64,000 nucleotides of DNA from contig NZ_CP134049.1 of assembly GCF_031582965.1 (NCBI RefSeq), positions 3,472,001 to 3,536,000 of the forward strand. Direction: 5' to 3'. Below are positions 8,965 through 52,495 of this stretch, piece after piece. Both the position numbers and the translations under genes were made by a program. Origin of the DNA: Bacillus sp. NEB1478. Lineage in GTDB: Bacteria > Bacillota > Bacilli > Bacillales > Fictibacillaceae. Position 1 is the stretch's first letter, and each line of letters opens with the position of its first letter. A model generated the notes under the pieces. It had not been told where the DNA came from. It saw only the letters and a list, made by a program, of their open reading frames with translations, and did not search any database.

Positions 8965-9096
8965 ATTGAGTTTAAATTTTATTATTGAGTCTAAATTAAA
9001 GAAATTGAGTCTTTTGGGTTGAGGATTGAGCCTTATATGCTCTTAATTGAGTCTCTCACTCCTTAAATTGCGTCTATCTACAATTTTTGCTAAAAA
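8965..9096 (+). repeat. Phased word array A (ATTGAGTCT, 6 units)
   Basis: The word ATTGAGTCT or a near match starts at 8965, 8984, 9004, 9025, 9046 and 9067, steps of 19, 20, 21, 21 and 21 bases. The bases between words are not conserved. The last unit (ATTGCGTCT) runs into TACAATTTTTGCTAAAAA at 9079-9096, a version of the end motif shared with other arrays here. It occupies much of the spacer between the NERD gene and yfmR. Confidence 0.85.
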
Positions 9097-9157
9097 ACGA
9101 CATTTTTCTAATTCTGAATGTCCACCCGACAAATACAAAAAGCGGTTTTGTATTTGT

Positions 9158-9174
9158 ATGGGGTCTGTCCCCAT
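9158..9174 (+). repeat. GGGGTCTGTCCCC palindrome
   Basis: ATGGGG/CCCCAT arms around a five-base loop. It is preceded by TTTGT, as in the 30-base repeat at 2261-2290 (ATTGT), and differs from it at the loop centre (T for A). Short member of the same dispersed family. Confidence 0.6.
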
Positions 9175-9190
9175 AGCAAATTCACAAAAA

Positions 9191-9210
9191 CCCCCTGCTT
9201 CTGCAGGGGG
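9191..9210 (-). terminator. Terminator of yfmR
   Basis: CCCCCTGC/GCAGGGGG stem with a four-base loop followed on the minus strand by TTTTTG, 13 bases after the yfmR stop. Confidence 0.88.
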
Positions 9211-9222
9211 CTCCTATCCATT

Positions 9223-11133
9223 CTAGTTATTCAGTTCTTCGACGAGCAGCGACAGCTCTTCCCAGCGTTCCATCGCTGATTCGAGCTCGCCTTCTATCTT
9301 CTTTTGTTCAGCAAACAGTTCGCTGATCCGTCCAAAATCACTGCCTGCAGCAGCGATTTCTGCTTCAAGCTGTTCTTTCTTTTCTTCCAGCTTCATGATG
9401 CGTTCTTCAATCGTTTCCCATTCTTGCTGCTCTTTATAAGATAGCTTTTTCCGCTTTTCTTTACGCGGTGAAGCCGCGGCAGAATCGGCTGCTTCCTGTT
9501 CTTCCTTTTTTTCAGCAGCCGCAGTCAGTTCATCCCGCTCTTTTTTCTCATCCATATAGTCGGAATAGCTGCCTTGAAAACGAACAACTTTCCCTTCTCC
9601 CTCAAAGGCAAGCAAATGATCGACCACGCGATCCAAAAAGTACCGATCATGCGAAACTGTCAAAACAACGCCAGGGAAGTGTTCTAGATATTCTTCCAAA
9701 ATACTGAGGGTCTGAATGTCCAAATCATTCGTCGGCTCATCCAGAAACAGCACGTTTGGCTCTTCCATCAGCACTTTCAGTAAATACAAACGGCGCTTTT
9801 CTCCGCCAGACAATTTGCGAATATACGTATATTGCATATAGCGCGGGAATAGAAATCTTTCGAGCATCTGCTCCGCAGTAATGCTTTGCCCATCAACTGT
9901 ACTGATTACTTGAGCGGTTTCTTTAACATAATCGATCATACGAAGATTGCCGTCCAGTTCCTCATGATCTTGTGTGTAGTAGCCGATCTTGACTGTTTCA
10001 CCAATTTCAATCGAACCCGAATCAGGCTTCACTCTTCCAGCCAGCATATTTAATAGGGTCGTTTTTCCGCTGCCGTTCGGACCGATAATCCCAAGCCTTT
10101 CACCAGGAACGATCAAGTAATCCAATCCACCGAGAAGCAGCTTTCCATCAAGGCTCTTCGACAGTCCTTCCACCTCGATTACTTTTTTACCAAGACGCTG
10201 TGAACCAATCGCAAACTCAACGCTTCCTTTTGCAGCTGGACCAGTTTCATCCTGTAATTTTTCTACTCGCTGAATCCGCGCTTTTTGTTTTGTGGTACGT
10301 GCTTTTGCACCACGTCGCAGCCAGGCTAATTCCCTTCGCAGCGTGTTTTGACGTTTGTCTTCAGTTTGCATAGCCAGCTCTTCACGCTCGGCCTTTTTTT
10401 CTAAATACGTTTCATAGTTCCCTTCATAGACATATAGCTTACCGGCGTCCATTTCAAAAATATGATTGGTCACGCGGTTCAAGAAATATCGATCATGGGT
10501 AACCATTAAAAGGGAACCTTTATAGCCAGCAAGAAAGGCTTCCAGCCATTCGACAGTATCATTATCCAAATGATTCGTAGGCTCATCCAAAATGAGCAAA
10601 TCTGCTGGTTGAATGAGTGCTTTCGCAATTGCCACTCGTTTTTTCTGGCCACCGCTTAAATGCTTCACTTGACGAGAAAAATCGCGCAATCCGAGCTTAG
10701 TCAAAACTGTTTTCGCCACTGTATTCGCTTCCCATGCTTCTGTCTCATCCATTTTTTGCTGACAGTTCATTAATCGCTGCAGTTTTTTCTCGTTAGCAGA
10801 ATCAGCTTCTAAATCAAGCAATGCTTGCTCATAATCTCTCATCGTCCTCATGATAAGAGAATCACCATAATAGATTTGCTCCAGAACAGACAGCTCTTCA
10901 TCCAGCACAGGCTCTTGCGCCACATATTCAATATGAAACTGGTTCGCGTGCGAAATCGTTCCTTTTTCAGCCGGTTCAAAGCCTGCGATTGCTTTTAGAA
11001 GCGACGATTTCCCTGTTCCGTTAGGTCCGATCAAACCGATTCTTTGTTTTTCTCCAATCGTAAAAGAAATCTCATCAAACAGTGTTTTTTCGCCATACGT
11101 TTTATATAAATTTTCAGCTTGTAAAATACTCAA
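9223..11133 (-). CDS. yfmR: ABC-F family ATPase YfmR
   Basis: Cytoplasmic ABC-F protein, 636 residues from the chosen TTG at 11133 (SD AAGGATG, then MSILQAENLYKTYGE), close to B. subtilis YfmR in length and N-terminus. Domain 1 has GPNGTGKSS, LSGGQKKRV and LLILDEPTNHLD; domain 2 has GPNGSGKTT, LSGGEKRRL and VLFLDEPTNDLD. A basic interdomain linker (RRGAKARTTKQKARIQR) and a C-terminal coiled coil (about residues 560-630, rich in Glu and Lys) are typical of the Uup/YfmR branch. In B. subtilis YfmR helps ribosomes through difficult stretches together with EF-P. The longer open frame to 11250 would include the promoter region and is rejected. Followed by a strong terminator. Confidence 0.92.
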   Translation of the reverse strand: MSILQAENLYKTYGEKTLFDEISFTIGEKQRIGLIGPNGTGKSSLLKAIAGFEPAEKGTISHANQFHIEYVAQEPVLDEELSVLEQIYYGDSLIMRTMRDYEQALLDLEADSANEKKLQRLMNCQQKMDETEAWEANTVAKTVLTKLGLRDFSRQVKHLSGGQKKRVAIAKALIQPADLLILDEPTNHLDNDTVEWLEAFLAGYKGSLLMVTHDRYFLNRVTNHIFEMDAGKLYVYEGNYETYLEKKAEREELAMQTEDKRQNTLRRELAWLRRGAKARTTKQKARIQRVEKLQDETGPAAKGSVEFAIGSQRLGKKVIEVEGLSKSLDGKLLLGGLDYLIVPGERLGIIGPNGSGKTTLLNMLAGRVKPDSGSIEIGETVKIGYYTQDHEELDGNLRMIDYVKETAQVISTVDGQSITAEQMLERFLFPRYMQYTYIRKLSGGEKRRLYLLKVLMEEPNVLFLDEPTNDLDIQTLSILEEYLEHFPGVVLTVSHDRYFLDRVVDHLLAFEGEGKVVRFQGSYSDYMDEKKERDELTAAAEKKEEQEAADSAAASPRKEKRKKLSYKEQQEWETIEERIMKLEEKKEQLEAEIAAAGSDFGRISELFAEQKKIEGELESAMERWEELSLLVEELNN

Positions 11134-11533
11134 AGTAATCATCCTTACCGTAATAAAAGTCATATCCCTATTGTATCTTAAGCCCGATAGATTAGCATCT
11201 TTACCATATGATTTGGGTTTTGTCTCAATCTTTGTTATAGTGTACAACATGTCCGAAAAGGAGTGGGCAATTGTTTGGAGTCTAAACGAATGCCACTATT
11301 TTCGTTATATGTCGGTTTTGGCTTGTATCTTGTAGTTAACCGGACCCCCATCCGGAACTAATTCAAGCGCATTTTTGTCTGCGCAATAACTTCAAGTTTT
11401 TTCACTCCTCGCAAGTCTTTTAAAAACTCCAATCTAGCTAGTACAACCAGCAATACGTCTCATAATGATGTTAGTTGCTGAGCAAACTAACATGAGTCAC
11501 TTCATGAAATTAGAAAAGGAGAGATTTTTTTAC
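11134..11533. other. Divergent control region between yfmR and putP
   Basis: Two small hairpins are visible: CCGGA/TCCGG near 11340-11356 and GCGCA/TGCGC near 11368-11385. A 28-codon frame at about 11250-11336 (ATGTCCGAAAAGGAG...) is too weak to call. The AAAGGAGAG at 11514-11524 is the putP ribosome-binding site. No further gene seen. Confidence 0.4.
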
Positions 11534-13009
11534 ATGCAAATAGGAGTAATCATTTCTTTAGTTATTTACATGGCCGGTATGCTTTATATCGGTTACTGGG
11601 CATATAAGAAAACATCGGATCTATCCGATTATATGCTCGGAGGAAGAGGACTGGGTCCCGCTGTTACAGCATTATCTGCTGGCGCATCCGATATGAGCGG
11701 ATGGATGATGATGGGGATACCAGGTGCGATGTTTACAGATGGCGTAAGCAGTATTTGGATTTCTGTCGGTTTGACGATCGGTGCATTTCTGAATTACATT
11801 CTTGTTGCACCTCGGCTTCGTACCTATACGGAAGTTGCGGATGATTCAATTACGATTCCGGATTATCTAGAAAATCGTTTTAACGATACAAAGAAAATTT
11901 TACGTATTGTTTCAGGACTTGTTATTATTATTTTCTTTACGCTTTATTCCTCCGCTGGTCTAGTATCTGGAGGAAAGCTATTTGAAAGTGCGTTCGGCTT
12001 AGACTACATGACAGGTATGATTTTAACTGGTGCCGTAGTTGTTGCCTACACGCTATTTGGGGGATTCCTTGCAGTAAGCTGGACTGACTTTGTGCAAGGT
12101 TGTATTATGTTCATTGCTCTTGTTCTAGTACCTATCGTGGCATTTACAGATGTTGGCGACACACAAACGGTATTAGATACAGTGCGCGGAGTAGATCCAT
12201 CATTGCTTGATCCAACAAAAGGATTAACATTACTCGGACTTTTATCGTTACTAGCTTGGGGATTAGGTTACTTTGGCCAGCCGCACATTATTGTTCGTTT
12301 TATGGCCATCACATCTGTAAAAGATATCAAAACAGCTAGAAGAATCGGTATGAGCTGGATGATTATCTCGCTTATCGGTGCATCATTAACTGGTTTAATT
12401 GGTGTAGCATGGTTCGCGAAAGCTGGTCGAAAACTTGCTGACCCTGAAACGGTGTTTATCGAGTTTGCTAACTTGCTGTTCCATCCATTGATTACAGGGT
12501 TCTTGCTTGCCGCGATTTTAGCAGCCATCATGAGTACAATTTCTTCGCAGCTGCTCGTAACTTCTTCATCTGTTACGGAAGATTTTTATAAGCAGTTCTT
12601 GAAAAAAGACGCTACACAAAAGGAACTCGTTCTTATTGGGAGAATATCAGTACTAACTGTTGCGGTTGTTGCAACATTACTATCGCTAAACCCTAATGAT
12701 ACGATTCTTAGTCTTGTAGGTTATGCTTGGGCAGGATTTGGTTCAGCATTCGGGCCTCTTATCTTGCTGAGTCTTTTCTGGAAACGCATGACAAAATGGG
12801 GCGCGTTAGCTGGTATCATTGTAGGTGCCGTTACGGTATTAGCTTGGGTCCAGTTCCCTGACTTGAAAGAACAAGTTTACGAAATGATTCCAGGTTTCTT
12901 CTTTAGTTTAATTGCGATCATAGTTGTAAGCTTCATAACAAAAGATCCTTCTACAAAAGTACAAGATCAATTCGAAGACATGGAAGATACTTTAAAAGAA
13001 AACTCATAA
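11534..13009 (+). CDS. putP: Sodium/proline symporter
   Basis: Integral membrane transporter of the sodium:solute symporter family, 491 residues from the ATG at 11534 (AAAGGAGAG ten bases upstream; the frame is open to 11465 but upstream codons look non-coding). About 13 membrane helices. PutP signatures include SDYMLGGRGLGP (about residues 30-41), LSAGASDMSGWMMMG (about 47-61, sodium-site region) and LAAILAAIMSTISSQLLV (about 322-339). Imports L-proline with sodium for nutrition or osmoprotection; the OpuE-type osmoregulated paralogue is an equally possible role. Single gene with its own terminator. Confidence 0.9.
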   Translation: MQIGVIISLVIYMAGMLYIGYWAYKKTSDLSDYMLGGRGLGPAVTALSAGASDMSGWMMMGIPGAMFTDGVSSIWISVGLTIGAFLNYILVAPRLRTYTEVADDSITIPDYLENRFNDTKKILRIVSGLVIIIFFTLYSSAGLVSGGKLFESAFGLDYMTGMILTGAVVVAYTLFGGFLAVSWTDFVQGCIMFIALVLVPIVAFTDVGDTQTVLDTVRGVDPSLLDPTKGLTLLGLLSLLAWGLGYFGQPHIIVRFMAITSVKDIKTARRIGMSWMIISLIGASLTGLIGVAWFAKAGRKLADPETVFIEFANLLFHPLITGFLLAAILAAIMSTISSQLLVTSSSVTEDFYKQFLKKDATQKELVLIGRISVLTVAVVATLLSLNPNDTILSLVGYAWAGFGSAFGPLILLSLFWKRMTKWGALAGIIVGAVTVLAWVQFPDLKEQVYEMIPGFFFSLIAIIVVSFITKDPSTKVQDQFEDMEDTLKENS

Positions 13010-13020
13010 AATGGTTAAAA

Positions 13021-13048
13021 AAAGCGTTCCTGATTTCAGGAACGCTTT
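13021..13048. terminator. Bidirectional terminator putP/fni
   Basis: AAAGCGTTCCTGA and TCAGGAACGCTTT arms with a two-base loop, T-run on the plus strand and A-run before it, so it can serve both converging genes. Confidence 0.9.
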
Positions 13049-14098
13049 TTATTTTGTTTTTTTAAGGAACCGGTTATTATAGGCAAGATCTCGGATTGTT
13101 GCTGCTCCAATACCAAACATCGCTGCCCTAAGTTCAAACTCTATCCGTTCCATTTGTAAAAGCAATGCATGAGTTCCTTCCTCGATCGCCGATTGTAATA
13201 GGGTACGGCCAAAGCCCGCTAGATTCGCGCCTAATGCGATTGATTTTGCAGCTTCTACACCATTTTTTAACCCGCCACTCGCGATAAGCGGAATTTTACG
13301 GTTCGTTTCACGAATACCGATAATACAGTCAGCAGTCGGCAGTCCCCAATCCAAGAATGCTTCTGCCGCTTCCTTTTTGATCTTAGAGTTTGCGCGATGA
13401 CTTTCAACTTGTATCCAGGATGTACCCCCAGCACCTGCCACATCGATAAATTGCACACCTGCAGCTATTAGTTTGTCGGATGTTTCATTGTCTATTCCCA
13501 TACCCACCTCTTTAACTCCGATTGGAACATGCGGGATTTCTTTTGTGAGTTTTTCAATCTTTGAAAGAAGATGAGAAAAATCCGTATTGCCTTCAGGCTG
13601 AAAAACTTCTTGTAATGTATTCAAATGAAGTACAATGGCATCCGCTTCTGCAAGATCAACAGCCCTTTTGCATTCTTCTGCACCAAAACCATAATTCAGC
13701 TGTACTGCTCCTACATTCGCAATCACAGGTACGTCAGGTGCCAAGTGCCTAATTTGAAACGTGTACGCCAGCTCTTCTTTTTCAACCGCAGCCCTCATAG
13801 AACCAAGACCAATTGCCCAGCCTCTTTCTTGAGCCGCTTCAGCCAAATTCTGATTAATTTGATGCGCGAGCTTTGTCCCACCTGTCATGGAACTGATCAA
13901 GAAAGGCGTTCTAACGTTTCTATTTAAAAATGTTGATGCTATCGATATATTGCTAAAAGCAATTTCAGGCAAAGGGTTAGGAATGAACCGATATTGATCA
14001 AGTCCGGTTGTAATGCCCTTTCCTTCAACATCCTGAGTCAGACTGATCTCAATATGCTCCGACTTCCGCTTTTCTGTATAATCACGCTCATCACCCAA
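13049..14098 (-). CDS. fni: Type 2 isopentenyl-diphosphate delta-isomerase
   Basis: FMN-dependent cytoplasmic enzyme that interconverts isopentenyl and dimethylallyl diphosphate for isoprenoid synthesis; 349 residues, the usual length. Visible family motifs are RKSEHIEISL at the N-terminus, TPFLISSMTGGT (about residues 59-70), GLGSMRAA, the LHLNTLQE substrate region with QPEGNTDF after it, and the C-terminal flavin phosphate loop IASGGLKNG followed by GANLAGFGRTLL. The start is a TTG at 14098 behind GGAGG. Single gene, convergent with putP. A copy of the 30-base dispersed repeat lies just upstream at 14119-14148. Confidence 0.93.
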   Translation of the reverse strand: MGDERDYTEKRKSEHIEISLTQDVEGKGITTGLDQYRFIPNPLPEIAFSNISIASTFLNRNVRTPFLISSMTGGTKLAHQINQNLAEAAQERGWAIGLGSMRAAVEKEELAYTFQIRHLAPDVPVIANVGAVQLNYGFGAEECKRAVDLAEADAIVLHLNTLQEVFQPEGNTDFSHLLSKIEKLTKEIPHVPIGVKEVGMGIDNETSDKLIAAGVQFIDVAGAGGTSWIQVESHRANSKIKKEAAEAFLDWGLPTADCIIGIRETNRKIPLIASGGLKNGVEAAKSIALGANLAGFGRTLLQSAIEEGTHALLLQMERIEFELRAAMFGIGAATIRDLAYNNRFLKKTK

Positions 14099-14118
14099 CT
14101 CATCACCTCCAATGATAG

Positions 14119-14148
14119 GGGGACTGACCCCTTACAATTTATTTCCCT
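14119..14148 (-). repeat. Dispersed 30-base repeat, copy 2
   Basis: Read on the minus strand this is AGGGAAATAAATTGTA, then A, then GGGGTCAGTCCCC. It matches 29 of the 30 bases of the copy at 2261-2290 and lies just upstream of fni. Confidence 0.75.
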
Positions 14149-14307
14149 TCGTCAAATCGAGAAAACACCCGAAGGGTTTTCTCATTTTCACACACCTAAA
14201 TCGATGCTTTTCCTTTTAGTATTTCTAATCCCTCAAAAATTACTGATAGCTACACATCTTCGTTCTATGATAAACTGTCAAATAAAACAATTAGTGGGGG
14301 TTTTTGT

Positions 14308-14823
14308 ATGGAAATAAGACTGCTCAATCCTTCAGATGCAGAGAGTTATTGGGAGCTCCGATTAGAAGCTTTGCAACAAAACCCTGAAGCTTTTGCGACT
14401 AGTTATGAAGAAGCTTTAAAAAGAGAAAACCCGATCGAACAAGTTGCAAGCAGACTCCAAGGTAACGGGGACTTCACCTTTGGTGCTTTCCACAACGGCA
14501 AACTGATCGGTGTCGTCACTTTACTTCAAGAGAAAGTCATGAAAATGGCTCACAAAGCCTATATATTAGCGATGTATGTCACTCCTGGCAATCGTGGTAA
14601 AAGTGTCGGAAAAGCTATTTTAACAGAAGCGATCAATCACGCAAAACAAAATTCTGAGATTATGAAACTAAACTTAACTGTAGTTTCCAGCAATGAAAGT
14701 GCAAAGAAACTCTACGCTTCCCTCGGTTTCAAAGCTTATGGATATGAAAAAGCGGCGCTCAAAGTAAATGATAAATATTATGATGAAGAACATATGGTTT
14801 TGTTCTTACAGAATTATAATTGA
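14308..14823 (+). CDS. GNAT family N-acetyltransferase
   Basis: 171-residue cytoplasmic acetyl-CoA-dependent acetyltransferase. The N-terminal IRLLNPSDAESYWELRLEA is a typical first strand and helix, and the acetyl-CoA loop is VTPGNRGKSVGKAIL (about residues 91-105), a variant of Q/RxxGxG/A. The motif SSNESAKKLYASLGFKAYG near residues 129-147 is the usual motif B. The substrate cannot be inferred. ATG behind GGGGG. Downstream, after 60 bases, lies phased word array B, whose end motif faces this gene. Confidence 0.85.
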   Translation: MEIRLLNPSDAESYWELRLEALQQNPEAFATSYEEALKRENPIEQVASRLQGNGDFTFGAFHNGKLIGVVTLLQEKVMKMAHKAYILAMYVTPGNRGKSVGKAILTEAINHAKQNSEIMKLNLTVVSSNESAKKLYASLGFKAYGYEKAALKVNDKYYDEEHMVLFLQNYN

Positions 14824-14884
14824 ACACACTGTAGACTGGAGACTTCATGAATTTGAAGTTTCTTTTTTATTTCCTGTTTGTCGA

Positions 14885-14998
14885 TTTATAACGAATTTTG
14901 TCAAAAAACTTAATTGTTGTCCAATTAGACTTAATTAGGTTTAAAAGAGACTTAATTATCCATTGATCAGACTTAATAACACCCGAATCAGACTTAAT
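14885..14998 (-). repeat. Phased word array B (ATTAAGTCT on minus strand, 5 units)
   Basis: On the plus strand the core ACTTAAT starts at 14908, 14929, 14950, 14971 and 14992, exactly 21 bases apart each time. Read on the minus strand the word is ATTAAGTCT (first base of the last unit at 14914), and that unit runs into GACAAAATTCGTTATAAA at 14902-14885, the shared end motif, 12 bases after the word start as in arrays A and C. Lies between the GNAT gene and the convergent small membrane protein gene. Confidence 0.88.
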
Positions 14999-15049
14999 CA
15001 CACCTTTTCGCCTATCAACAAAAACACCAAAAAAAGCCACATAAAAAGA

Positions 15050-15066
15050 GCCAGCAATTTGCTGGC
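15050..15066 (-). terminator. Terminator of the kinase/small membrane protein operon
   Basis: GCCAGCA/TGCTGGC stem with a three-base loop, followed on the minus strand by TCTTTTTATG, just after the stop at 15073. Confidence 0.85.
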
Positions 15067-15072
15067 CCTCGT

Positions 15073-15231
15073 TTATTTGTCATCCTTCTCTAAATAGCTT
15101 TCTTCTTCATTAATGCGTTTTTTCTTTTTAGCTGCGCGAACAATAAAAATGATGATGAACACGAGCAATAGTAAACTAACGCTGAAAAATCCGCCTAAAA
15201 ACTTAAAAATATCTGTTAAGAAGTTATCCAT
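15073..15231 (-). CDS. Small single-pass membrane protein (52 aa)
   Basis: Reading frame starting MDNFLTDIFKFLGGFFSVSL with AGAGGTG nine bases upstream. One membrane helix (about residues 10-35) is followed by a basic stretch (RAAKKKKR) and an acidic cytoplasmic tail, so the C-terminus should face the cytoplasm. It starts 46 bases after the stop of the KinB-like kinase and ends at a terminator, so it is probably co-transcribed with it. I do not recognise a family. A small accessory or modulator of the kinase is a reasonable but untested idea. Confidence 0.65.
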   Translation of the reverse strand: MDNFLTDIFKFLGGFFSVSLLLLVFIIIFIVRAAKKKKRINEEESYLEKDDK

Positions 15232-15277
15232 GCTGATTAATCACCTCTTCAGACGGTATTCCCATATCGAAGAGTTA

Positions 15278-16552: not shown

Positions 16553-16684
16553 CTCAAATCTCCAGTTCAAAAATGGCTTGTGAACTAAGAATACGACAAA
16601 AAAAGGGAAATTCCTGCAAGAACCGCCCTCTGTATACTACTTTAGAAACGTTTTTATTAATACAAATGTATTATTTTTTTCAAA

Positions 16685-20381: not shown

Positions 20382-20532
20382 ATTAAGTCTCATATGAGAT
20401 TATTAAGTCTAATTAGTGCCCGATAAGTCTGATTTGAAAAAATTAAGTCTGATTTAAAAAAATTAAGTCTTTTTGAGTCAGAATTACGTCTCATTTTAAA
20501 TAATTAAGTCTTTCTACAAATTTCGGCAAAAA
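20382..20532 (+). repeat. Phased word array C (ATTAAGTCT, 7 units)
   Basis: Word starts at 20382, 20402, 20422 (GATAAGTCT), 20442, 20462, 20483 (ATTACGTCT) and 20503; steps are 20 bases with one of 21. Bases between words vary, though two spacers share GATTT. The last unit runs into TACAAATTTCGGCAAAAA at 20515-20532, the best copy of the end motif, 12 bases after the word start. Sits between the symporter terminator and the start of the exporter operon. Confidence 0.9.
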
Positions 20533-26855: not shown

Positions 26856-26971
26856 TTTTTGTCGATCTTTGTCGGTTCGGGAGTATATGGAGAAAACCCG
26901 GTGGATTATTGGTTAAACCCGGTGGATTATGGGCAATTCTTGGTGGATTAACGCCAAAACTCGGTGGATTA
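26856..26971 (-). repeat. Phased word array D (TAATCCACC on minus strand, 4 full units)
   Basis: On the plus strand CGGTGGATTA (once TGGTGGATTA) starts at 26899, 26920, 26941 and 26962, exactly 21 bases apart. Read on the minus strand the word is TAATCCACCG; a fifth, decayed unit TATACTCCCG starts at 26887 and leads into GACAAAGATCGACAAAAA (26873-26856), a good match to the end motif of arrays A-C although the word itself is different. The array begins two bases after the GNAT stop codon. Confidence 0.88.
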
Positions 26972-35403: not shown

Positions 35404-35520
35404 ATAATTCCACGGTAATCCATCATAATTCCACACTCATGCTCCATAATTCAACGGTAATCAACCGTAATTCCACAAAAACACCTGACATGACCACGAG
35501 TCGACATTATTCGGCAAAGA
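35404..35520 (+). repeat. Phased word array F (ATAATTCCAC, 4 units plus decayed fifth)
   Basis: ATAATTCCAC or a near match starts at 35404, 35425, 35446 (ATAATTCAAC) and 35467 (GTAATTCCAC), exactly 21 bases apart; a decayed fifth unit ACATGACCAC is at 35488. This leads into GACATTATTCGGCAAAGA at 35503-35520, clearly the end motif seen in the other arrays. Spacers differ, although the first and third share CGGTAATC. Lies in the 382-base gap between the RsbR-like gene and the membrane protein operon; nothing else was seen in that gap. Confidence 0.87.
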
Positions 35521-42760: not shown

Positions 42761-42818
42761 ACTCCACCTCAGAACAAAATTCATTTTAGTAATATTTTAC
42801 ATTTTGTGACACAAAAAA

Positions 42819-42847
42819 AGAAGATGAAACTACAATAATTTCATCTT
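42819..42847 (-). terminator. Terminator of the second sigma/anti-sigma operon
   Basis: GAAGATGAAA/TTTCATCTTC stem followed by a run of seven T on the minus strand, about 12 bases after the stop at 42859. Confidence 0.92.
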
Positions 42848-42858
42848 CCTAAAAAATA

Positions 42859-44169: not shown

Positions 44170-44683
44170 TGAGATTTCCTCCTTTCTCCTCCAGTTTGGA
44201 TCGTAATGCTTTCAATGCCTTGTTCAGCCATGTTTTCACTGTTCCTTCAGGGCATTGCATGGAACTCGCAATCTCATTTATTTTCAAGTCATGAAAATAC
44301 TTTAATGTCAGAATTTCACGGGATCGGTCATCTAACCCAAGCATGGCGTCCTTTAACTCCATCTCGGTATAATTTTCAGATACTGCTTGAACGTCCAGCA
44401 GCTCGTCGTTTAAAACGAGTCTCTTCCTCTTTTTTAATTGATCGTTACAATAATTGATCATGATGCGGATCAGCCATGTCTTAAAAAAAGAAGGTTCTTT
44501 CAGCTTGCGGATACTCTTATAAGATCGGTAAGTTACCTCTTGAATGGCTTCTAGCGCTTCTTCCTCATTCCTTAAATAAGATAAAGCCGTTTTATATAGA
44601 TCTATTTTATAAGCTTGAATGAGCTGCAAAAATGCTTCGTCATCGCCCTTTATTGCTTTTTTGACTGCTTGCTCTGTCTCCAA
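44162..44683 (-). CDS. ECF-type RNA polymerase sigma factor (second pair)
   Basis: 173-residue sigma factor starting at a TTG at 44683 behind AAGGGGGC, METEQAVKKAIKGDDEAFLQ. Region 2 has DLYKTALSYLRNEEEALEAI with the QEVTYRSYKS end, and region 4 has the helix-turn-helix FHDLKINEIASSMQCPEGTV (about residues 130-149). It is closely similar in layout to the 25610 sigma factor, including the PEGT(I/V)K turn. The DUF4179 anti-sigma follows with an eight-base overlap. The regulon and signal are not visible. Confidence 0.88.
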   Translation of the reverse strand: METEQAVKKAIKGDDEAFLQLIQAYKIDLYKTALSYLRNEEEALEAIQEVTYRSYKSIRKLKEPSFFKTWLIRIMINYCNDQLKKRKRLVLNDELLDVQAVSENYTEMELKDAMLGLDDRSREILTLKYFHDLKINEIASSMQCPEGTVKTWLNKALKALRSKLEEKGGNLNV

Positions 44684-44755
44684 CTTTTCGCCCCCTTAAC
44701 CCCTATCTATATATTAGACCTACGGAACTGGAAAAAGTTTTGAAATTAATAAAAA

Positions 44756-44784
44756 AATCAGCCCTATTTTTTCAAGAGCTGATT
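44756..44784 (-). terminator. Terminator of the helicase gene
   Basis: AATCAGCTCT/AGGGCTGATT stem with a run of seven T on the minus strand, eight bases after the stop at 44792. Confidence 0.9.
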
Positions 44785-44791
44785 CTCTGTA

Positions 44792-47700
44792 TTACAGGAT
44801 ATTTTTATTCGCTTTTGGAACGAGATACGATGGCATCTCTTCATGTAACCGCCATTGAATACTAACAGGTTTACTTCCATAATGACTAACATGCTCAACT
44901 GTTCCTAAGAAAATAAAGGGTGATGTATATCCATTTTCTTTTTTATATTCACGAACAAATAAAGCTATTTGATGGTTATTCTGGCGATGATTAATATATC
45001 GTTTCGCTGTACTACTTCCCTCTGCTACTGTGCTTTGAGATTGCCAATGAAACAATCTCTCATTTACTGCATAATCATCATAAAGTGTTGATGGAGAGAA
45101 ATCTTTTTCTGATTTATTTAAAGTTGTAAAAAATATATCGAGATTTTTATCGTTGAAATGTTTAACACCTTCTCGAAATGCAGGGCTTTTCTCTTCGTTA
45201 AAATAACCCAGTGCAGCTAATACTTGTGCAGTTGAATATTTGCCATGAACTCGTAATGGAGTAGTAAATTTCAAATTTGTCTCATGTTCGATAGTATCTA
45301 GTGAGTTATAAAGGTAGTTAAGTATAGCTGAAATTTCAGAATTAAACTCGAATGAAGATAGAATCTTTTGTATTCCTTCTTCAATAGAAGTTAGTCCTTC
45401 TTTTTCTGGACAAGATTTATAAAAGGAATAATAAAACATTGCAAGCATCAGATGCTCTTCGTCATTGGTAACCGATCCTTCATTAATGTATTTGATTAAA
45501 AATTTTAAAAGATAACTCGAATTCAAATGAAAAAGTGCAGATAGCCGTTTTGTTACTAGAGTCTCATTACTAAACTGAAAGTCTGGTTTAACTCCAGCTT
45601 CTACCATCATTCTACTAAAGCTTCGTTCCCCATTTTTACCATAAAAGTCATACAAGTTTAAATGATGATAAGTAAGGAAATTGCTGAGTGTTAATAGTAA
45701 TCCTGTATCTTGTTCAAAATGTTTCATTTTAGAAATCAAGTTAGCTTTTGTGTTTGATGATGATTTAATATTCCTCAAAATATAATCTTTTGCTTGTTTC
45801 TCTAACTGAACGAAACACCCTTTAGGTAGGTTGAAAAATCCATTCTCAACATAAAATTGTACAGAATGCTTCGTTCTCCCGATCAACGCTCTAAACTTTT
45901 CTTCAAAATTGTAGTTCTGGTGAGCTTGTCCTACAAAATCAAGAACCGTCAGGCAATCTTTTCCCTCACTTAACCGCAAACCACGACCCAATTGTTGAAG
46001 GAAGATTGTTAAACTTTCAGTTGGCCTTAAAAAAAGGACTGTATTTACTTGAGGGATATCAATTCCTTCATTGTATAAATCAACAACAAAAATAAATTTT
46101 ATTTCTCCACTCACAAGCCTTGCTTGAGCTTCTCGACGAATAGATTGTTGAACATCTCCGTATAAAGCGATAGAAGGGATTCCAACTTGATTAAAAAATT
46201 CAGCCATATATTTTGCATGTTCTACTGAAACACAGAATCCAAGACCTTTAACATCATCAAGGTCAGTTACATATTTTTTGACACTTTTTACGATCAAGTT
46301 ACTTCTCATCGAATTAGAAGTGTACACTTTCTCCAATTCTTTAATTTCGTACCCTTTTCGACTCCACTTTAGTTTGGATAAATCTACCGTGTCACTTACA
46401 CAAAAATACTGAAAAGGACTTAACAGTTTTTTATCTACGGCTTCTGTTAGACGCATTTCCGCAGCAATTGTATCATCGAAGTATGACAATATACTTTTAC
46501 CGTCCATACGTTCTGGTGTTGCTGTTAATCCTAATAAAATTTTCGGTTGATAATGGTTTAATAACCTTTGATAGGATTCTGCGGCAGCATGATGAAATTC
46601 ATCAACAATAATAAAATCATAATAATCACTCGTCGTTCTCTCATAGAGCTTCTTACTATTAAAGCTCTGTATGCTTACAAATAAATGATCAATTGATGTT
46701 GGTATACTACTACCTACTAGCATTTCACCAAAATTCGCATCCTTTAAAATGGCTCGAAACGTGTTTAAACTTTGTTTTAGGATCTCTTCACGATGAGCAA
46801 CAAAAAGAAGTCGTGAAGTTCCTTTGTTTTGTGATTTGAACCGTTTGTAATCAAATGCTGATATTACTGTTTTACCTACACCAGTTGCAGCTACCACTAG
46901 ATTCTTCATCCGTTTGTGAATGGATCTTTCGGCTTCCAGATTATCAAGAATTTCTTTTTGATAATAAAATGGCTGAATATCAAATATGAAATGAAGATCA
47001 TTTTTTTCTTTAAGTTTTTCCTTAGAGAGCGCTAGTCTGAGTAATTCATGGTCATGTTCATTTTCCATGTGGAATTGTTTAAACTCATTATCATTCCAGT
47101 AGCTTTCAAATGTCGCTTCAAACTTCTTTAAAATATCGAATGAATCTTTCTCTGTCACTTTAATATTCCATTCCAGTCCTGAGGTTAAAGCTGGATTGGA
47201 CAAATTGGAAGATCCAATATAAGCCGTACTGAATCCTGTTTCACGTTTAAACAAATACGCTTTCGCATGAAGACGTGTGCGATCTACATCGTACGAAATT
47301 TTAATTTCGGTATTTGGTAGTTTACTCAGTTCAATAATAGCTTTATAATCAGTGGCTTCCATGTAAGAAGTTGTTATTACGCGAAGCTTTTTCCCGGCTT
47401 CAGTAAAAACCTTTAATTCTTCTAAAATACAACGTAATCCACTCCATTTTATAAATGAGACGAGCATATCAATAGAGTCTGCAGATAGAATCTCCTTTTT
47501 TAATTCCCCCATCATATTCGGTTCATAATTAGATCCGGTAAAAAGAGAACTTTGAGAAATAGGCGTGACAGGACGAATCGTCTCACCTTTTCGTATACTA
47601 CGAACCGAATTTATCCGTGAATAAATGGAAGTTAATACTTCGCCTTCTTCTTCAATCTTCAATGCCCGAAATTCATCCTGGTCTAGTCTTTCACTTAATA

Positions 47701-47944
47701 TTGTAATGATGTCATTGCATGTTTGAATTTGATTAAGTAGAGCGACTCTATCGTCCTTTTCATTATCTCTAACAAACTTCAAAGCCTTTCTGGTAATAGT
47801 TGAAATGTAAGAAGATAATAGTTTTCTGGCTTCCTCCACATCTATTTTCTCCTTCTCAACATCAAATTTCCCTAACTCTAAATGAGAAAGATCGTCCTTA
47901 AGCTTTTGTGTAATAATTTCTTCATAAATTCCTTGTTTAAGCAT
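44792..47944 (-). CDS. PLD-helicase-DUF3427 protein
   Basis: 1050-residue cytoplasmic protein. An N-terminal helical region (about 1-120) is followed by a phospholipase D-like nuclease domain with one HxK motif (RLHAKAYLF, about residues 224-232, and YIGSSNLS at 242-249). Then comes a superfamily 2 helicase core: Walker A ATGVGKT at 353-359, DEFH at 448-451, TATP at 474-477, DLYNEGIDIP at 632-641 and QLGRGLR at 651-657. The C-terminal 350 residues match DUF3427. Family members sit in DNA-processing and defence settings. A NERD/zinc-ribbon gene lies 44 bases upstream on the same strand, suggesting an operon. Codon use is more AT-rich than its neighbours. A defence role is inference. Confidence 0.85.
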   Translation of the reverse strand: MLKQGIYEEIITQKLKDDLSHLELGKFDVEKEKIDVEEARKLLSSYISTITRKALKFVRDNEKDDRVALLNQIQTCNDIITILSERLDQDEFRALKIEEEGEVLTSIYSRINSVRSIRKGETIRPVTPISQSSLFTGSNYEPNMMGELKKEILSADSIDMLVSFIKWSGLRCILEELKVFTEAGKKLRVITTSYMEATDYKAIIELSKLPNTEIKISYDVDRTRLHAKAYLFKRETGFSTAYIGSSNLSNPALTSGLEWNIKVTEKDSFDILKKFEATFESYWNDNEFKQFHMENEHDHELLRLALSKEKLKEKNDLHFIFDIQPFYYQKEILDNLEAERSIHKRMKNLVVAATGVGKTVISAFDYKRFKSQNKGTSRLLFVAHREEILKQSLNTFRAILKDANFGEMLVGSSIPTSIDHLFVSIQSFNSKKLYERTTSDYYDFIIVDEFHHAAAESYQRLLNHYQPKILLGLTATPERMDGKSILSYFDDTIAAEMRLTEAVDKKLLSPFQYFCVSDTVDLSKLKWSRKGYEIKELEKVYTSNSMRSNLIVKSVKKYVTDLDDVKGLGFCVSVEHAKYMAEFFNQVGIPSIALYGDVQQSIRREAQARLVSGEIKFIFVVDLYNEGIDIPQVNTVLFLRPTESLTIFLQQLGRGLRLSEGKDCLTVLDFVGQAHQNYNFEEKFRALIGRTKHSVQFYVENGFFNLPKGCFVQLEKQAKDYILRNIKSSSNTKANLISKMKHFEQDTGLLLTLSNFLTYHHLNLYDFYGKNGERSFSRMMVEAGVKPDFQFSNETLVTKRLSALFHLNSSYLLKFLIKYINEGSVTNDEEHLMLAMFYYSFYKSCPEKEGLTSIEEGIQKILSSFEFNSEISAILNYLYNSLDTIEHETNLKFTTPLRVHGKYSTAQVLAALGYFNEEKSPAFREGVKHFNDKNLDIFFTTLNKSEKDFSPSTLYDDYAVNERLFHWQSQSTVAEGSSTAKRYINHRQNNHQIALFVREYKKENGYTSPFIFLGTVEHVSHYGSKPVSIQWRLHEEMPSYLVPKANKNIL

Positions 47945-47988
47945 ATTTCACCTCTGAAGTATGTCTTGGTTTACTAGTTTCTACCTTT

Positions 47989-48723
47989 TTATGCTCCACG
48001 ACTAACAAATCTACATTTTGGATAATTACTGCAGCCCTTGAAAAAACCGTATTTTCCTTTTCGGTTAACGAGGGTGCTTCCGCAAGATGGGCAAGTATCT
48101 TGATTTATTTTTTGTTTTTTTACACGAAGATCTGTTTTAATCTGCTTAACATGTTCTTTTCGTATAGTTCTATCTTTCATGTTACCTTTTGATATCAACT
48201 CAGCTATTACCTTCATGTTATGTTGACTCATAACCTGTTGAAAGTGGCTATGAATAGTCGTAGTAATATATTTCATGTAAACGACTTTGGTTTCAGTGGG
48301 CTCTAACTTTAATTTGCAACTGTTACTAAAAGCAATGATTGATCTAATAGGTATGGTATCGTCATAAATTAAATCTTTTATCGAGGTGACATGTCCTTTG
48401 TTTTGTTTAATTGGATTATAAAACTTTTGTTTTCTTTTATAAATTACTTGTGTCCAATACTGGCTCTTTTCACTTCCAAAAATCCAACCTTGATAGTTTT
48501 TAGTCTCAATTACAAAAACACCAAAAATAGATACAACAATATGATCAACCTGTGTAGTTGTACCATCCTTTTTTGTTAGTAGTACATCCTTTAAGATTAT
48601 GTAATTATTTGGATCTAACTTCTTTAACTGATTGTTTACAACCATTTCACCAATATACCCTTTGATATATGGTGACTTAAGAGCAATCGCCATAATAAAG
48701 ACTAATAATAAGAAATAACCCAT
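47989..48723 (-). CDS. NERD domain protein with topoisomerase-type zinc ribbon
   Basis: 244-residue protein with a hydrophobic N-terminus (about residues 2-15, probable membrane anchor), a NERD domain (about 20-130) and a C-terminal zinc ribbon. NERD residues are visible: GYIGEMVVNNQL, then QVDHIVVSIFGVFVIETKNY with the D...ExK nuclease-like core. The ribbon CPSCGSTLVNRKGKYGFF is followed by GCSNYPKCRF, the zf-C4_Topoisom pattern. The ATG has GGGGGG upstream. It precedes the PLD-helicase gene by 44 bases. The two together could act on foreign or damaged DNA, but this is inferred from domain content only. Confidence 0.83.
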   Translation of the reverse strand: MGYFLLLVFIMAIALKSPYIKGYIGEMVVNNQLKKLDPNNYIILKDVLLTKKDGTTTQVDHIVVSIFGVFVIETKNYQGWIFGSEKSQYWTQVIYKRKQKFYNPIKQNKGHVTSIKDLIYDDTIPIRSIIAFSNSCKLKLEPTETKVVYMKYITTTIHSHFQQVMSQHNMKVIAELISKGNMKDRTIRKEHVKQIKTDLRVKKQKINQDTCPSCGSTLVNRKGKYGFFKGCSNYPKCRFVSRGA

Positions 48724-48802
48724 ACAATGATCCCCCCAACCAACTCTCTTTTAGTTAAATTTTACCATTCATTCCACTTTCAAAATAGATCTCTCAACGA
48801 AA

Positions 48803-48830
48803 AAACCCTTATCACAATCGACAAGGGTTT
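48803..48830 (-). terminator. Terminator of the L,D-transpeptidase gene
   Basis: AAACCCTT/AAGGGTTT stem followed on the minus strand by TTTTTCG, starting about 16 bases after the stop at 48846. Confidence 0.88.
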
Positions 48831-48845
48831 TAAACAACTGTTTAA

Positions 48846-49592
48846 TTAAAACATCCCCAGCGCTTTTTTCGTTGCTGGTCCTACGATTCCATCTACTTTT
48901 AGTTTCTTTGCTTTTTGGAATTTACGTACGGCAGCATCTGTGTTGGCGCCAAATATGCCATCGATCCCTTTTGTGCTGTATCCTAAGTTTGTGAGCCTGC
49001 TTTGAAGTTCTCTGACTTCAGCCCCTCTGCTTCCTTTTTTCAAATTATAAATGGAGAAAACAGGTACAGTTGATCCATTCGTCACTTTATAACCGTTTGC
49101 TGATGCGATGGCTGTAAATGTTTTTCCGGAAGTCGTGATAATAACTGGCGTGTTCACTGGAATTCTGGCGTATAGCCATTGCACGTCATTATTGTACATA
49201 CGAATACAGCCTGCACTCACATATCCTCCTATTGAACTTGCATTGTTGTTTCCGTGAATGGCATACGTTGTTCCCCACGTTCCTCTTGCATTTAGTCCCA
49301 GCCAGCGGTTTCCTAAAGGATTTCTTGGATCTCCCCCTGGTATTTTCCCTGTATAATAAGGCCTGTTTACGATTTTGTTCACTATTTTAAACTTTCCTTC
49401 CGGTGTGTAAGAAGGCTGTCGTCCTGTCCCTACCTTAAATGTTTTTACTACTTTATTATTCTCGAAATACGCCAGCTGGTTGTTTGACTTATTTATTATG
49501 ATTAAAGAAGAAGCTTCGGCTGTGGCCGGCTGAACAAAAAAGAACATTAAACAAAACATAAGTAACGCAGAAACTATTTTTTTCGTCTTCAT
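48846..49592 (-). CDS. L,D-transpeptidase with peptidoglycan-binding domain
   Basis: 248-residue secreted enzyme. A signal peptide (about residues 1-27, cleavage near AEA-SS) is followed by a YkuD catalytic domain (about 28-140) with the active-site motif HGNNNASSIGGYVSAGCIRM, where the His and Cys are catalytic, and a C-terminal PG_binding_1 repeat (about 180-245: LKKGSRGAEVRELQSRLTNL, GIDGIFGANTDAAVRKFQ). It makes 3-3 crosslinks or attaches to the stem peptide in the wall or spore cortex. Domain order is catalytic first, binding second, unlike B. subtilis YkuD, which has an N-terminal LysM. Single gene with own terminator. Confidence 0.92.
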   Translation of the reverse strand: MKTKKIVSALLMFCLMFFFVQPATAEASSLIIINKSNNQLAYFENNKVVKTFKVGTGRQPSYTPEGKFKIVNKIVNRPYYTGKIPGGDPRNPLGNRWLGLNARGTWGTTYAIHGNNNASSIGGYVSAGCIRMYNNDVQWLYARIPVNTPVIITTSGKTFTAIASANGYKVTNGSTVPVFSIYNLKKGSRGAEVRELQSRLTNLGYSTKGIDGIFGANTDAAVRKFQKAKKLKVDGIVGPATKKALGMF

Positions 49593-49773
49593 TCCTTCGC
49601 TCCTATTCCTCTGAAAAATTTAAAATCCTCATATTCTATGCGAGGTAATAGGATCTGCATGCTTATTTTGTAAAAATTTTAATAAAAAAATCATGAATAT
49701 TAAGCTTGTACCATGAATAGACTGATAGGTTATATTTAAAATAAGGATCAATAAGAGAAAGTAGTTGAAATAG

Positions 49774-50307
49774 ATGCAGAAAATTATGCTGAAAAACAAT
49801 TTAGAAGTTGAGATCAGAAAAGTTAATAAAGAAGATGCCCAAAACATGATTGATTTTTATAATGTGGTCGGTGGTGAAACAGATTTTCTTTCTTTCGGAA
49901 AAGATGAGTTTAAGAAGACACGAGAAGAATATGAGGCGTATATCGAAACGGTTTCAATAGAAGAGAATTCCATTATGCTGCTTGCAACGATTGACTCTCA
50001 GATCGTGAGTATCGCAACGGTTAATTCCTCACAAAAAGAAAGAACCAAGCATGTGGGGACACTAGGAATCGTAATCTCAGAAGCTTACACTGGTTTAGGC
50101 TTAGGGAAAATTCTAATGAACGAATTGATCGAGTTCGCTAAACAGAACAGCATTACGAAAAAGATCAGCCTTGTTACGCGAGAAGATAATGTCGTGGCGA
50201 TTGAGCTATATAAGAAGTTAGGCTTTGAGGTTGAAGGCGTTATGAAAAAAGATAATTTCATAAGAGGACAATATTACGGTACGATCGCGATGGGGCTGTT
50301 TATCTAA
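49774..50307 (+). CDS. GNAT family N-acetyltransferase
   Basis: 177-residue cytoplasmic acetyltransferase. The acetyl-CoA loop is GTLGIVISEAYTGLGLGKIL (about residues 89-108) and motif B is NVVAIELYKKLGFEVEGVMK (about 147-166), a pattern close to ribosomal protein and amino acid acetyltransferases such as RimJ/YhhY types. The ribosome-binding site is weak (GAGAAAG far upstream), so the start could also be the ATG at 49786. Ends at a strong bidirectional terminator shared with yaaN. Confidence 0.82.
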   Translation: MQKIMLKNNLEVEIRKVNKEDAQNMIDFYNVVGGETDFLSFGKDEFKKTREEYEAYIETVSIEENSIMLLATIDSQIVSIATVNSSQKERTKHVGTLGIVISEAYTGLGLGKILMNELIEFAKQNSITKKISLVTREDNVVAIELYKKLGFEVEGVMKKDNFIRGQYYGTIAMGLFI

Positions 50308-50314
50308 ACGGAAA

Positions 50315-50342
50315 AAGGTACCTGCATCTCTACAGGTACCTT
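50315..50342. terminator. Bidirectional terminator
   Basis: AAGGTACCTG/CAGGTACCTT perfect stem, eight-base loop, five A before it and TCTCTACTT after it; it serves the GNAT gene and yaaN. Confidence 0.85.
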
Positions 50343-50349
50343 CTCTACT

Positions 50350-51528
50350 TTATTCCCCTTTAATCTCCAGCAGCTTTTGTCTTAATCCAATCTCCATTGT
50401 TGCGAGTTCTTCTTCAGCAAGCCTTCGCTTCATTCGTCCTTCTTCTTGGATACGAAGAGTTTCTTCTAGAGTAGATAGTAAGTTTTCTTGTGTTTTCTTC
50501 AAAGTCTCAATATCGATCAAACCGCGTTCATTCTCTTTTGCGACTTCGATCGTATTCGTCTTAAGCAGTTCTGCATTTTTTAACAGCAGTTCATTCGTCG
50601 TTTTTGAAACTTGTTTTTGGGCTTCTACTGCATTTCGCTGTCTGATGAGTGTGAGCGCAATCGCCACTTGATTTTTCCATAGCGGAATTGCTGTCATGAT
50701 CGATGATTGAACTTTTTCGATCAGTGCTTGGTTTGTGTTTTGAATCAAACGAATCTGTGGGGCGCTTTGGATCGTGATCTCCCTGCTAAGCTTCAAATCA
50801 TGCAATCTTTTATCTAATCGATCGGCAAACTGGACCATGTCGTTTACTTCTTGATACTTCATCTGATCGTTCGTTTGCTCTGCCACTCTTCTCATCTCTG
50901 GAATCGTGACTTGATTCAGTTCATCCAGCTTCAATTCTCCGGCTGCAATGTATACATTGAGCGCTTGGAAGTATTCTTTATTGTTTTCATAAAGCTTCTC
51001 CAGCATCACAATATCTGACATCAGTACGTTTTTGCTGCCCTCTAGCTTTACGGAAATACGGTCAATTTGTGCCCCAGTCTTTTGGTACTTTGATAGCACT
51101 TCTTGAACTGATCCTGAAATTTTTCCAAACATGCGGTTAATTAAAGTGGGTTTTGTAGACTTTAGTTCTTCAGGATTCACATCATGAAGCTTTCTCATTA
51201 AATCATTAATGATTTCTCCGATCTGTCCTGTGTCTTTCTTTTTCACATGTTCTAGCATCGTGTTCGAAAATGATAATAATTTCGCTTGAGCAGGTGCTCC
51301 GTATGTAATCATCGTTTGATGATTCGTAGGATCTATCTGCTTTGCCAGCTGATACGCTTTTTCTTTATTCTCTTCAGGAAGCACATCGATGAGTCTGATC
51401 TGCTTATTTTCGTTATGATTTTCTGTTATCGCTGATTCTTTCTTATTATCTCCGAACGGATTTGACAATAGCTCATCCATTAAGTTCGCATCATCGTTTT
51501 TAAACAGGGGTGCATTATTTTCGCTCAT
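50350..51528 (-). CDS. yaaN: TelA family protein YaaN
   Basis: 392-residue cytoplasmic protein of the TelA/toxic anion resistance family, largely alpha-helical and coiled-coil rich (about residues 60-390). It has the length and partner of B. subtilis YaaN. Family text such as [20 protein letters not shown] and [20 protein letters not shown] is present. It overlaps the end of xpaC by 14 bases. Members are linked to tellurite or cell-envelope stress resistance, but the biochemical role is not known. Confidence 0.88.
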
Positions 51529-52180
51529 GAATATCTCCTGCCTTTTTTATAAATTGTGATTCTTTAAGTGACCGGATCGAGTTCTTTGCGACATCGATCT
51601 CGAAATTCAGCTCTTCTATATCATTAGATAGAACGTCGTATAAATCCTTCTCAATATACGTTTTCAGCTCACTCAGCGTACTTTTCGTTTCGACCAATGA
51701 CTTTGTAATCTCTGCACTTTTTTTGGGCTGAGACAATAGAAACATATACTTTTCCGTCAGTTCAACTGTTGAATCCAAGTGAGAGAAGTAGAATTGTTCA
51801 GCTTGATAAAATCGGCGAGGTTCTTTTTTTGTTAAGCTCTGAATCTTTCTGATGACACGGACGAGTTCAACTCTTTGCTTCAAAGACGGCAAATCCCGAA
51901 TAGAAAGCAAGCTCTTCTGCAGACGATGAATCTTTGGTTTTGCTTCGTCTATATTTTGCTTGATGTATTTATACTCTCTTCTTGTGAGCTGATGTTTCGC
52001 TAGAAATCGATGCTTGGAAAGTGCCCCAGCTGCTGTATATGCAACAATTCCTCCTGCTATAGAAATTCCTGATGCTAGGAGATACGTTTGATTCAAATAT
52101 AGATAACCGATACTCCATATCCCGATGGATGCTGGTACGGCTATCATCATGCGGAGTAAAAAGGATAAAAAACCGTTCAT
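51515..52180 (-). CDS. xpaC: XpaC family protein
   Basis: 221-residue membrane-associated protein. Two hydrophobic segments near the N-terminus (about residues 3-28 and 32-52) are followed by a helical cytoplasmic region with coiled-coil pattern. The name comes from the 5-bromo-4-chloroindolyl phosphate hydrolysis family of B. subtilis XpaC, whose true activity is unclear. Directly upstream of and overlapping yaaN, the same order as in B. subtilis (xpaC-yaaN). The ATG has AGGAG ahead of it. Confidence 0.87.
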
Positions 52181-52363
52181 AATAATCGACTCCTGACGTC
52201 AAACTTCTTTCTACTCTATACATACGTAAGTACAAGTTTGGGAGTTTCGTATAAAGTGAAAAAAGTTTCCATATATTATCTTTCTATTATTACCTTACAT
52301 CTCCCTTCCTAAAATGCCCATAGCTTCAAGATGTAATGTTTTCTAAGACTTGAGGCGTATATG

Positions 52364-52495
52364 TGATTAACAAATAATGAGCTTATGTGTAGTTATGGTT
52401 GATTTATGTTGGTTTAGGAGAGGTTAATGTAGATTCAGGAGGTTTTTATAAGGATTCGCAAGCTGTTTATGTGGCATCACAGCACATTTATGTGG
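52364..52495 (-). repeat. Phased word array E (CCACATAAA on minus strand, 6 units)
   Basis: On the plus strand TTTATGTGG or a near match starts at 52382 (CTTATGTGT), 52403 (TTTATGTTG), 52424 (TTAATGTAG), 52445 (TTTATAAGG), 52466 and 52487, exactly 21 bases apart every time. Read on the minus strand the word is CCACATAAA. The unit at 52390 runs into GCTCATTATTTGTTAATC (about 52382-52364), a weaker match to the end motif of array F (shared CATTATT) at the same distance from the CCAC position. It lies in the 429-base gap between xpaC and the symporter gene; the rest of that gap holds only the terminator. Confidence 0.78.

Follow-up and report, generated by a model that had tools for sequence, protein, structure and literature searches.

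The 64,000-nucleotide stretch analysed here, called the window, covers bases 3472001-3536000 of a genome that consists of one contig (3930924 bases), and the closest relatives of the gene tested are found in Fictibacillus. Between its genes lie six arrays in which a short word is repeated in one direction at steps of about two helical turns. All six had been reported in the initial annotation and are present, with copy counts of 6, 5, 7, 4, 4 and 6. Their parts are given below in window coordinates; matches at half a turn were set aside in this tally of words and steps.

8965 to 9075, minus strand: array 1, six copies of ATTGAGTCT (AGACTCAAT on the minus strand), steps 19, 20, 21, 21 and 21
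9076 to 9104, minus strand: leader-like stretch of array 1 (by eye), with TGTCG at 9098-9102 on the minus strand, then TGTAG
14838 to 14863, plus strand: intrinsic-terminator-like hairpin of the plus-strand gene upstream of array 2
14879 to 14905, plus strand: leader-like stretch of array 2 (by eye), with TGTCGA at 14879 and TGTCA at 14899
14906 to 14998, plus strand: array 2, five copies of AGACTTAAT, the first being AAACTTAAT, steps 21
15046 to 15070, minus strand: intrinsic-terminator-like hairpin of the minus-strand gene on the far side of array 2
20382 to 20511, minus strand: array 3, seven copies of ATTAAGTCT, steps 20, 20, 20, 20, 21 and 20
20512 to 20530, minus strand: leader-like stretch of array 3 (by eye), TGCCGAAATTTGTAGAA on the minus strand
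26860 to 26879, plus strand: leader of array 4, TGTCGATCTTTGTCGGTTCG
26899 to 26971, plus strand: array 4, four copies of CGGTGGATTA, steps 21
35405 to 35476, minus strand: array 5, four copies of TAATTCCAC (GTGGAATTA on the minus strand), steps 21
35497 to 35516, minus strand: leader of array 5 (by eye), TGCCGAATAATGTCGACTCG on the minus strand
52382 to 52495, no strand given: array 6, six copies of a degenerate TTTATGTGG, steps 21, no leader seen

The leader of array 5, TGCCGAATAATGTCGACTCG, differs by 1 base from the leader found throughout the genus, TGTCGN5TGTCGACTCG. The words of array 6 are the most degenerate of the six (0-2 mismatches of 9), and this array is the weakest, since it was detected by the chain-score test alone and not by the other finders. 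A weak similarity at 10-11 bases, i.e., an echo at one helical turn, is seen in arrays 2, 5 and 6. Array 3 has no plasmid match, and the 64-kb window has no Rfam match at gathering scores. Elsewhere in the window (59109-59336) there is a direct tandem duplication of a 125-base unit (1.8 copies, 87% matches) that does not resemble the arrays.

The excess of such arrays over shuffled DNA, which the initial annotation had put up for checking, is borne out. The chain score of each of the six, calculated for 9-base words at steps of 19-22, was matched by 0 of 500 dinucleotide shuffles and attained by 0 of 90 other window segments. A de novo finder, requiring at least four nine-base words at steps of 19-22 with at most two mismatches, identified 22 chains in 460 kb of the source genome and 0, 0 and 0 in three shuffles, and with other step ranges it returned 3, 1, 1 and 0 chains in the same 460 kb. 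Four of the 22 were flagged inside called reading frames, two of them (3366056 and 3496738) being coding repeats by appearance. At this standard setting arrays 2, 3 and 6 were missed; arrays 2 and 3 were recovered by the AAGTCT pattern. Pairs of AAGTCT at 19-22 bases occur 53 times in the source genome (reversed pattern 8), and pairs of GGATTA at 20-21 bases 44 times (reversed pattern 2), with 2 pairs at 24-25 bases as a period control. In relatives, steps of 15-18 yield 0 to 5 chains per block at the strict setting (5 in G010). With a looser setting of three words of 10, both step ranges give 10 chains in G015, and the 15-18 counts approach the 19-22 counts in G008, G006 and G010.

The period holds across the genus. 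Over 63 arrays of nine genomes (at least four words per array, steps of 19-22 allowed, orthologues included), 283 steps were counted, distributed over 20 (151), 21 (129), 19 (2) and 22 (1) bases. Without three long minisatellites 232 steps are left, of which 100 measure 20 bases, 129 measure 21, 2 measure 19 and 1 measures 22. Three apparent true arrays lying under spurious reading frames (3141543 in the source genome, G008 229 and G015 4044) were restored for this count of steps and identity, and a 17-unit minisatellite (G006 38592) was excluded from it; two more of this kind, G005 24627 and 57661, were also restored for the listing of words. The earlier description of mostly 21-base steps therefore holds for arrays 2, 4, 5 and 6, whereas array 3 runs at 20 and steps of 20 are about as common as 21 in the genus.

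Within the 63 arrays mean identity is 0.89 for words, 0.54 for spacers and 0.33 for shuffled spacers, the first figure being inflated because words are detected through their mutual likeness. The spacers, about 9-12 bases long, had been called mostly unrelated; they are indeed far less alike than the words, but more alike than shuffled sequence. Within them there is a small excess of word copies at half a step (3.04 vs 2.44 matches of 9, offset 10). Instead of the two word classes first distinguished there are about ten in the genus. Examples from an incomplete list are CGGTGGATTAT, CGTTGGATTAT, CGTGGAATTAT, CGCGAGATTAT, AGACTTAAT and AGACTCAAT, as well as GAAGACTTATAAA, GGCCTATAAA, GGATCATAAA, CGAGCATAAA, GTGGACAGTAAA and TTGGACAGATTA. 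When written in a single orientation, the words share a GC-richer 6-7-mer with an AT core behind it, as judged by eye.

Many arrays are preceded by the leader TGTCGN5TGTCG, whose halves are spaced by 10 bases and keep the phase of the first word. A loose leader pattern is modestly enriched, with 136 matches in 18 genomes vs 95 when reversed; in 76 of the 136 (hand count) the three free bases are ACT, giving TGTCGN5TGTCGACTCG, once with N6. The strict tandem leader occurs six times in 460 kb, always in intergenic DNA. Five of the six adjoin a detected array and the sixth adjoins CGTGG repeats (by eye and BLAST). Among 24 leader rows (25 found, two of which are one locus, with L145, which is not an array, excluded), GGTAT-like words stand 20-22 bases before the leader in 7, and ATACC stands 119-121 bases after it in 6. 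The consensus of the 0A box bound by Spo0A is TGTCGAA, and the leader TGTCGN5TGTCGAC resembles two such boxes in tandem. In G005, G010 and G012 (L202-L211, L217-L221), arrays of CGCTCAAAAT or CGCTCATAG type are accompanied by a second type of leader, ACGGTACGTGTT...TTACACG. A site of leader form with no array, similar to TGTCGACN5TGTCGTCCCG, is present in 16 of 18 genus genomes by hand count (examples are L131, L134, L139, L145 and L156, near base 1501, and G000:C1:3860783). Where it was read, it lies ahead of the start of a conserved gene, which we take to be spoVB-like.

The arrays avoid the space between divergent genes. In nine genomes 101 chains were found, and 79 intergenic ones remained after 22 lying mostly in called reading frames had been dropped; reading frames were called by a simple rule. 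Of the 79, which include 19 three-word chains (controls at that setting are weak in part of the relatives), 33 are in convergent (13.9 expected by length), 44 in tandem (43.3 expected) and 2 in divergent contexts (21.8 expected). With at least four words (n = 60) the numbers are 22 (10.5 expected), 37 (32.9) and 1 (16.6), respectively. A hairpin terminator precedes many arrays by 20-45 bases, and at one locus (locus A) an array apparently replaces the terminator that the source genome has there, both by eye.

Orientation was assigned from an analyst-made list of word patterns. A fixed orientation to the upstream gene, expected from the AGACT class of the source genome, failed over all classes: in tandem contexts 24 arrays run in the same direction, 17 in the opposite one and 3 are undecided (p = 0.35). 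In convergent contexts orientation agrees with the nearer gene end in 20 of 27. Single word classes are oriented despite the lack of an overall bias. AAGTCT pairs, for instance, lie on one replication strand in 47 of 53 cases (hand count, with the origin assumed near contig position 0). Physical properties were calculated for those arrays of 4-9 words that have convergent or tandem neighbours (n = 56). Against shuffles, RNA folding gives a mean z of -0.12 for one strand and -0.15 for the other, and 5 and 10 of the 56 arrays, respectively, fall below -2. Predicted curvature, calculated from wedge angles, exceeds z = 2 in 14 of the 56 vs 3 of 60 random segments, too modest a signal for intrinsic curvature to serve as the explanation. 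Neither do the arrays replace Rho, because all 18 genus genomes have rho.

With regard to distribution, GGATTA pairs over the 18 genus genomes amount to 200 at 20-21 bases, vs 48 at 24-25 and 40 for the reversed pattern. For seven other genomes of the family the numbers are 26 at 20-21 and 10 at 24-25, and for sixteen genomes of the order 40 and 43; all these are hand sums. AAGTCT pairs number 281 in the 18 genus genomes vs 97 for the reversed pattern, and 27 vs 80 in the other 23 genomes. The excess of one or the other word is absent from some genus members, that of GGATTA being unclear in G002, G004 and G006. Direct chains occur in eight of eight other Fictibacillus blocks, 2 to 9 each, some within reading frames. 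Outside the genus but in the same family, 2 chains were found in 100 kb of G022, 0 in 100 kb of G020 and 0 in 24 kb of G021, and 26 loci of other genera (523 kb) contain 2 chains. From this distribution of chains and pairs it follows that the arrays are a Fictibacillus trait, with traces in at least one neighbouring genus. The 27 intergenic chains in 460 kb of the source genome would extrapolate to about 230 arrays per genome. In another genus of the family, L196 (G022:C1, 498-840) carries two adjoining word arrays, ATATATCGGT in six copies and GCGTGATTAT in four.

Comparison between species, which is freer of the word-detection bias than identity within arrays, shows a rate of change in words that is about 0.4 times that in spacers. 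It drew on eight loci, picked for a shared word and with pairs that are not independent. Differences affect 27 of 866 sites in words, 62 of 756 in spacers and 417 of 3943 in flanks. At seven of the loci words evolve more slowly than spacers and at one the two rates are equal; at locus 104671a words change about as fast as the flanks. Together with the strict 20/21 steps and the period controls, these rates uphold the earlier proposal that word and spacing are selected, and argue against tandem duplication with neutral decay as the whole story.

At the same time, whole arrays turn over. Downstream of one ABC-F gene, an array or remnant is seen by eye in ten of ten Fictibacillus genomes (L031-L039, L045), with four different words among the ten and about two units only in L034. 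At locus A, between the same flanks, two genomes have TTGGACAGATTA in six copies and two have GTGGACAGTAAA, in six and five copies, the five-copy array lacking exactly one unit. At locus E, two genomes carry a 20-base minisatellite that is near-perfect, with 21 and 18 units, a third has a different word in 17 copies, and two others have almost nothing; near-perfect 20-base arrays of 15-21 units occur in several relatives. These minisatellites and the loss of one unit indicate an origin by duplication with later divergence of the spacers, so the exclusion of tandem duplication in the initial annotation is not sustained. None of the five relatives shown has window array 2 at the corresponding place. 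For array 3, four relatives were compared: three lack it, and one has an array of CCAC type at that place. One array class of the source genome exists as dispersed copies, about 240 bases long, whose left edge falls sharply at TGTCG. A 401-base query has 45 matches in this genome; among the best 13 non-self matches of the 45, ten start at query positions 52-65 (TGTCG at 64) and ten end at 297-303. Ten copies align over about 240 bases, and no inverted ends were seen by eye on this aligned family. Judged by their letters, these patterns indicate that arrays would arise by amplification of a 20/21-base unit, after which spacers drift, purifying selection maintains word and phase, and whole arrays are replaced.

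Two further observations concern array positions. Stretches of about 4.4-4.9 kb (G015 block 107477-111919, G006 block 92737-97627) occupy places at which an array is found in G003 and G008; such sites may therefore be prone to insertion. In L034, a different GC-rich sequence (GGAGCCTAAGGTGCAAGACTCCTGCAGG...), presumably a dispersed repeat, stands upstream of base 906 where the window has array 3.

The arrays share features with several known systems. REP and BIME elements of enterobacteria are extragenic, exist in many copies, favour gene 3' ends and form palindromic hairpins. The arrays are likewise extragenic, numerous and biased to gene 3' ends, but they are direct repeats with a mean folding z near 0, as expected from the first assessment that they are not REP elements. 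The same assessment had set them apart from CRISPR, correctly, as the spacers (about 9-12 bases) are inherited and drift between species, which rules out CRISPR-like acquisition. In plasmid iterons, direct repeats of 17-22 bp combine a conserved part with a variable one and are occupied head to tail. The arrays have such a conserved and a variable part too, but they are spread chromosome-wide at gene ends instead of lying at one replication origin.

The nearest published kind that was found is BrickBuilt, a minisatellite MITE of Porphyromonas gingivalis (PMC4596501). It consists of a spacer-free array of 23-base units of one family behind a leader, in 19 copies, with small inverted ends formed by leader and tail and with terminators or polyadenylation sites beside 10 of the 19 (PMC4596501). 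Common to both are intergenic short tandem units behind a leader at several loci per genome, a unit number that varies (between strains in BrickBuilt) and a better conserved half of the unit. The Fictibacillus arrays, too, are intergenic and vary in unit number at conserved loci. They are set apart from BrickBuilt by units of 20/21 bases, about ten word classes, about 230 extrapolated arrays and diverged spacers: few arrays are near-perfect, and spacer identity is 0.54 against 0.89 for words. A description of such arrays for Bacillaceae was not found in the literature searched, in which few subscription journals were covered. Another parallel is formed by the ends of Tn7-like and CAST elements, with several TnsB sites of 22 bp each; the first two share 1 bp, and those of ShCAST are unevenly spaced (PMC9371665). 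The first two sites thus lie about two turns apart, close to the 20/21 steps of the arrays. Unlike such ends, the arrays occupy many fixed intergenic places and no paired opposite end was seen.

Our preferred reading, held tentatively and with a little less than even confidence, is that the arrays are helically phased binding sites for one or more putative DNA-binding proteins of Fictibacillus and its close kin. A protein bound head to tail would be the simplest agent. Because the two-turn phase is strict and mean folding is near that of shuffles, it would be DNA that is read, on one face, as had been suggested at the outset; the slower change of the words and the period controls are consistent with this as well. 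The putative proteins may sit along that face with one protomer per two turns. The words may be allowed variants of one loose rule, the GC-richer 6-7-mer plus an AT core (ATTA, ATAAA), and the word of each array may have been fixed by its founder unit. The resulting filament could insulate, either by stopping transcription that reads through terminators or by tethering the chromosome at the ends of genes. Place alone suggests this role, and place alone also fits a repeat that is tolerated only there. In favour of the protein rows are the strict 20/21 steps, conserved words between drifting spacers, phased leaders, 3'-end placement, minisatellite forms and turnover. Several observations count against them. 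Words vary among arrays and are replaced whole between species, which a single protein must tolerate. Array orientation to genes is not fixed overall (24 vs 17), some arrays exist as dispersed copies of the kind expected from a mobile repeat, and in relatives the period controls are weaker and the pair excess is not found in every genus genome. Moreover, the 3'-end enrichment would also follow from purging of promoter insertions.

The main rival of the protein rows holds that the words are transposase-binding sites near the TGTCG-starting end of non-autonomous, MITE-like mobile repeats, and that DNA behind terminators merely tolerates insertions. We consider this possible but doubtful. It would account for the dispersed copies with shared edges near TGTCG, ten of which align over some 240 bases, for arrays that are present in one species and absent from another, for the occupation of one site by two different arrays, and for the GGTAT-like words at -20 to -22 (7/24) and ATACC at +119 to +121 (6/24). 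Tn7-like ends bear several 22-bp TnsB sites (PMC9371665). Several results speak against this rival. The Mu/Tn7-type transposase domain (Mu-transpos_C) has no match in 14 of the 18 genus genomes, the source genome included; 14 control genomes gave none either, the only positives being the other four genus genomes. The single IS21 transposase match of the source genome is far below the cut-off (19.8 bits vs 160). These two domain searches found no resident Tn7/Mu or IS21 transposase in that genome. Inverted ends were not seen by eye on the 240-base family, and words are conserved in place at orthologous loci, which would not be expected of dead copies.

Three other explanations are less probable. 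It is unlikely that the arrays are phased sites which gyrase or a nucleoid protein wraps, in regions past genes where positive supercoils accumulate. BIMEs that bind gyrase offer a parallel, and the 20/21-base phasing with its weak one-turn echo and the enrichment between convergent genes are in line with it; yet wrapping demands phased composition and not conserved 9-12-base words, and a general gyrase leaves the restriction to one genus and its near kin unexplained. Rather improbable, too, are neutral minisatellites made by slippage and then decaying. They would give the near-perfect 20-base arrays of 15-21 units in relatives and the one-unit loss, but not words and phase that persist while spacers diverge, nor a leader common to many arrays. 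An RNA element read in 20-21-base steps, an option offered by the initial annotation, is very improbable. Some classes are strand-biased (AAGTCT in 47 of 53 pairs, given the assumed origin) and a minority of arrays folds with z under -2 (5 and 10 of 56); against this, mean folding z is near 0 (-0.12, -0.15), the window has no Rfam match at gathering scores, orientation is mixed over all classes (24 vs 17, p = 0.35) and a 20/21 phase has no rationale in single-stranded RNA.

A more specific form of the protein-binding rows, which we regard as possible but less likely than not, is a lineage-specific insulator. The putative protein would polymerise on arrays past gene ends and act there as a roadblock or anchor, while the arrays, born as minisatellites, would be selected into phase and have their words swapped, recognition drifting between arrays and species. 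If a protein is indeed bound, the arrays would constitute a bacterial DNA-binding array system located at gene ends rather than promoters and, by extrapolation, present in hundreds per genome. The word replacements, births and losses would then be natural experiments on the transition from a minisatellite to a phased binding array. With them, the way in which repeats turn into regulatory sites could be tested directly in bacteria that can be cultured.
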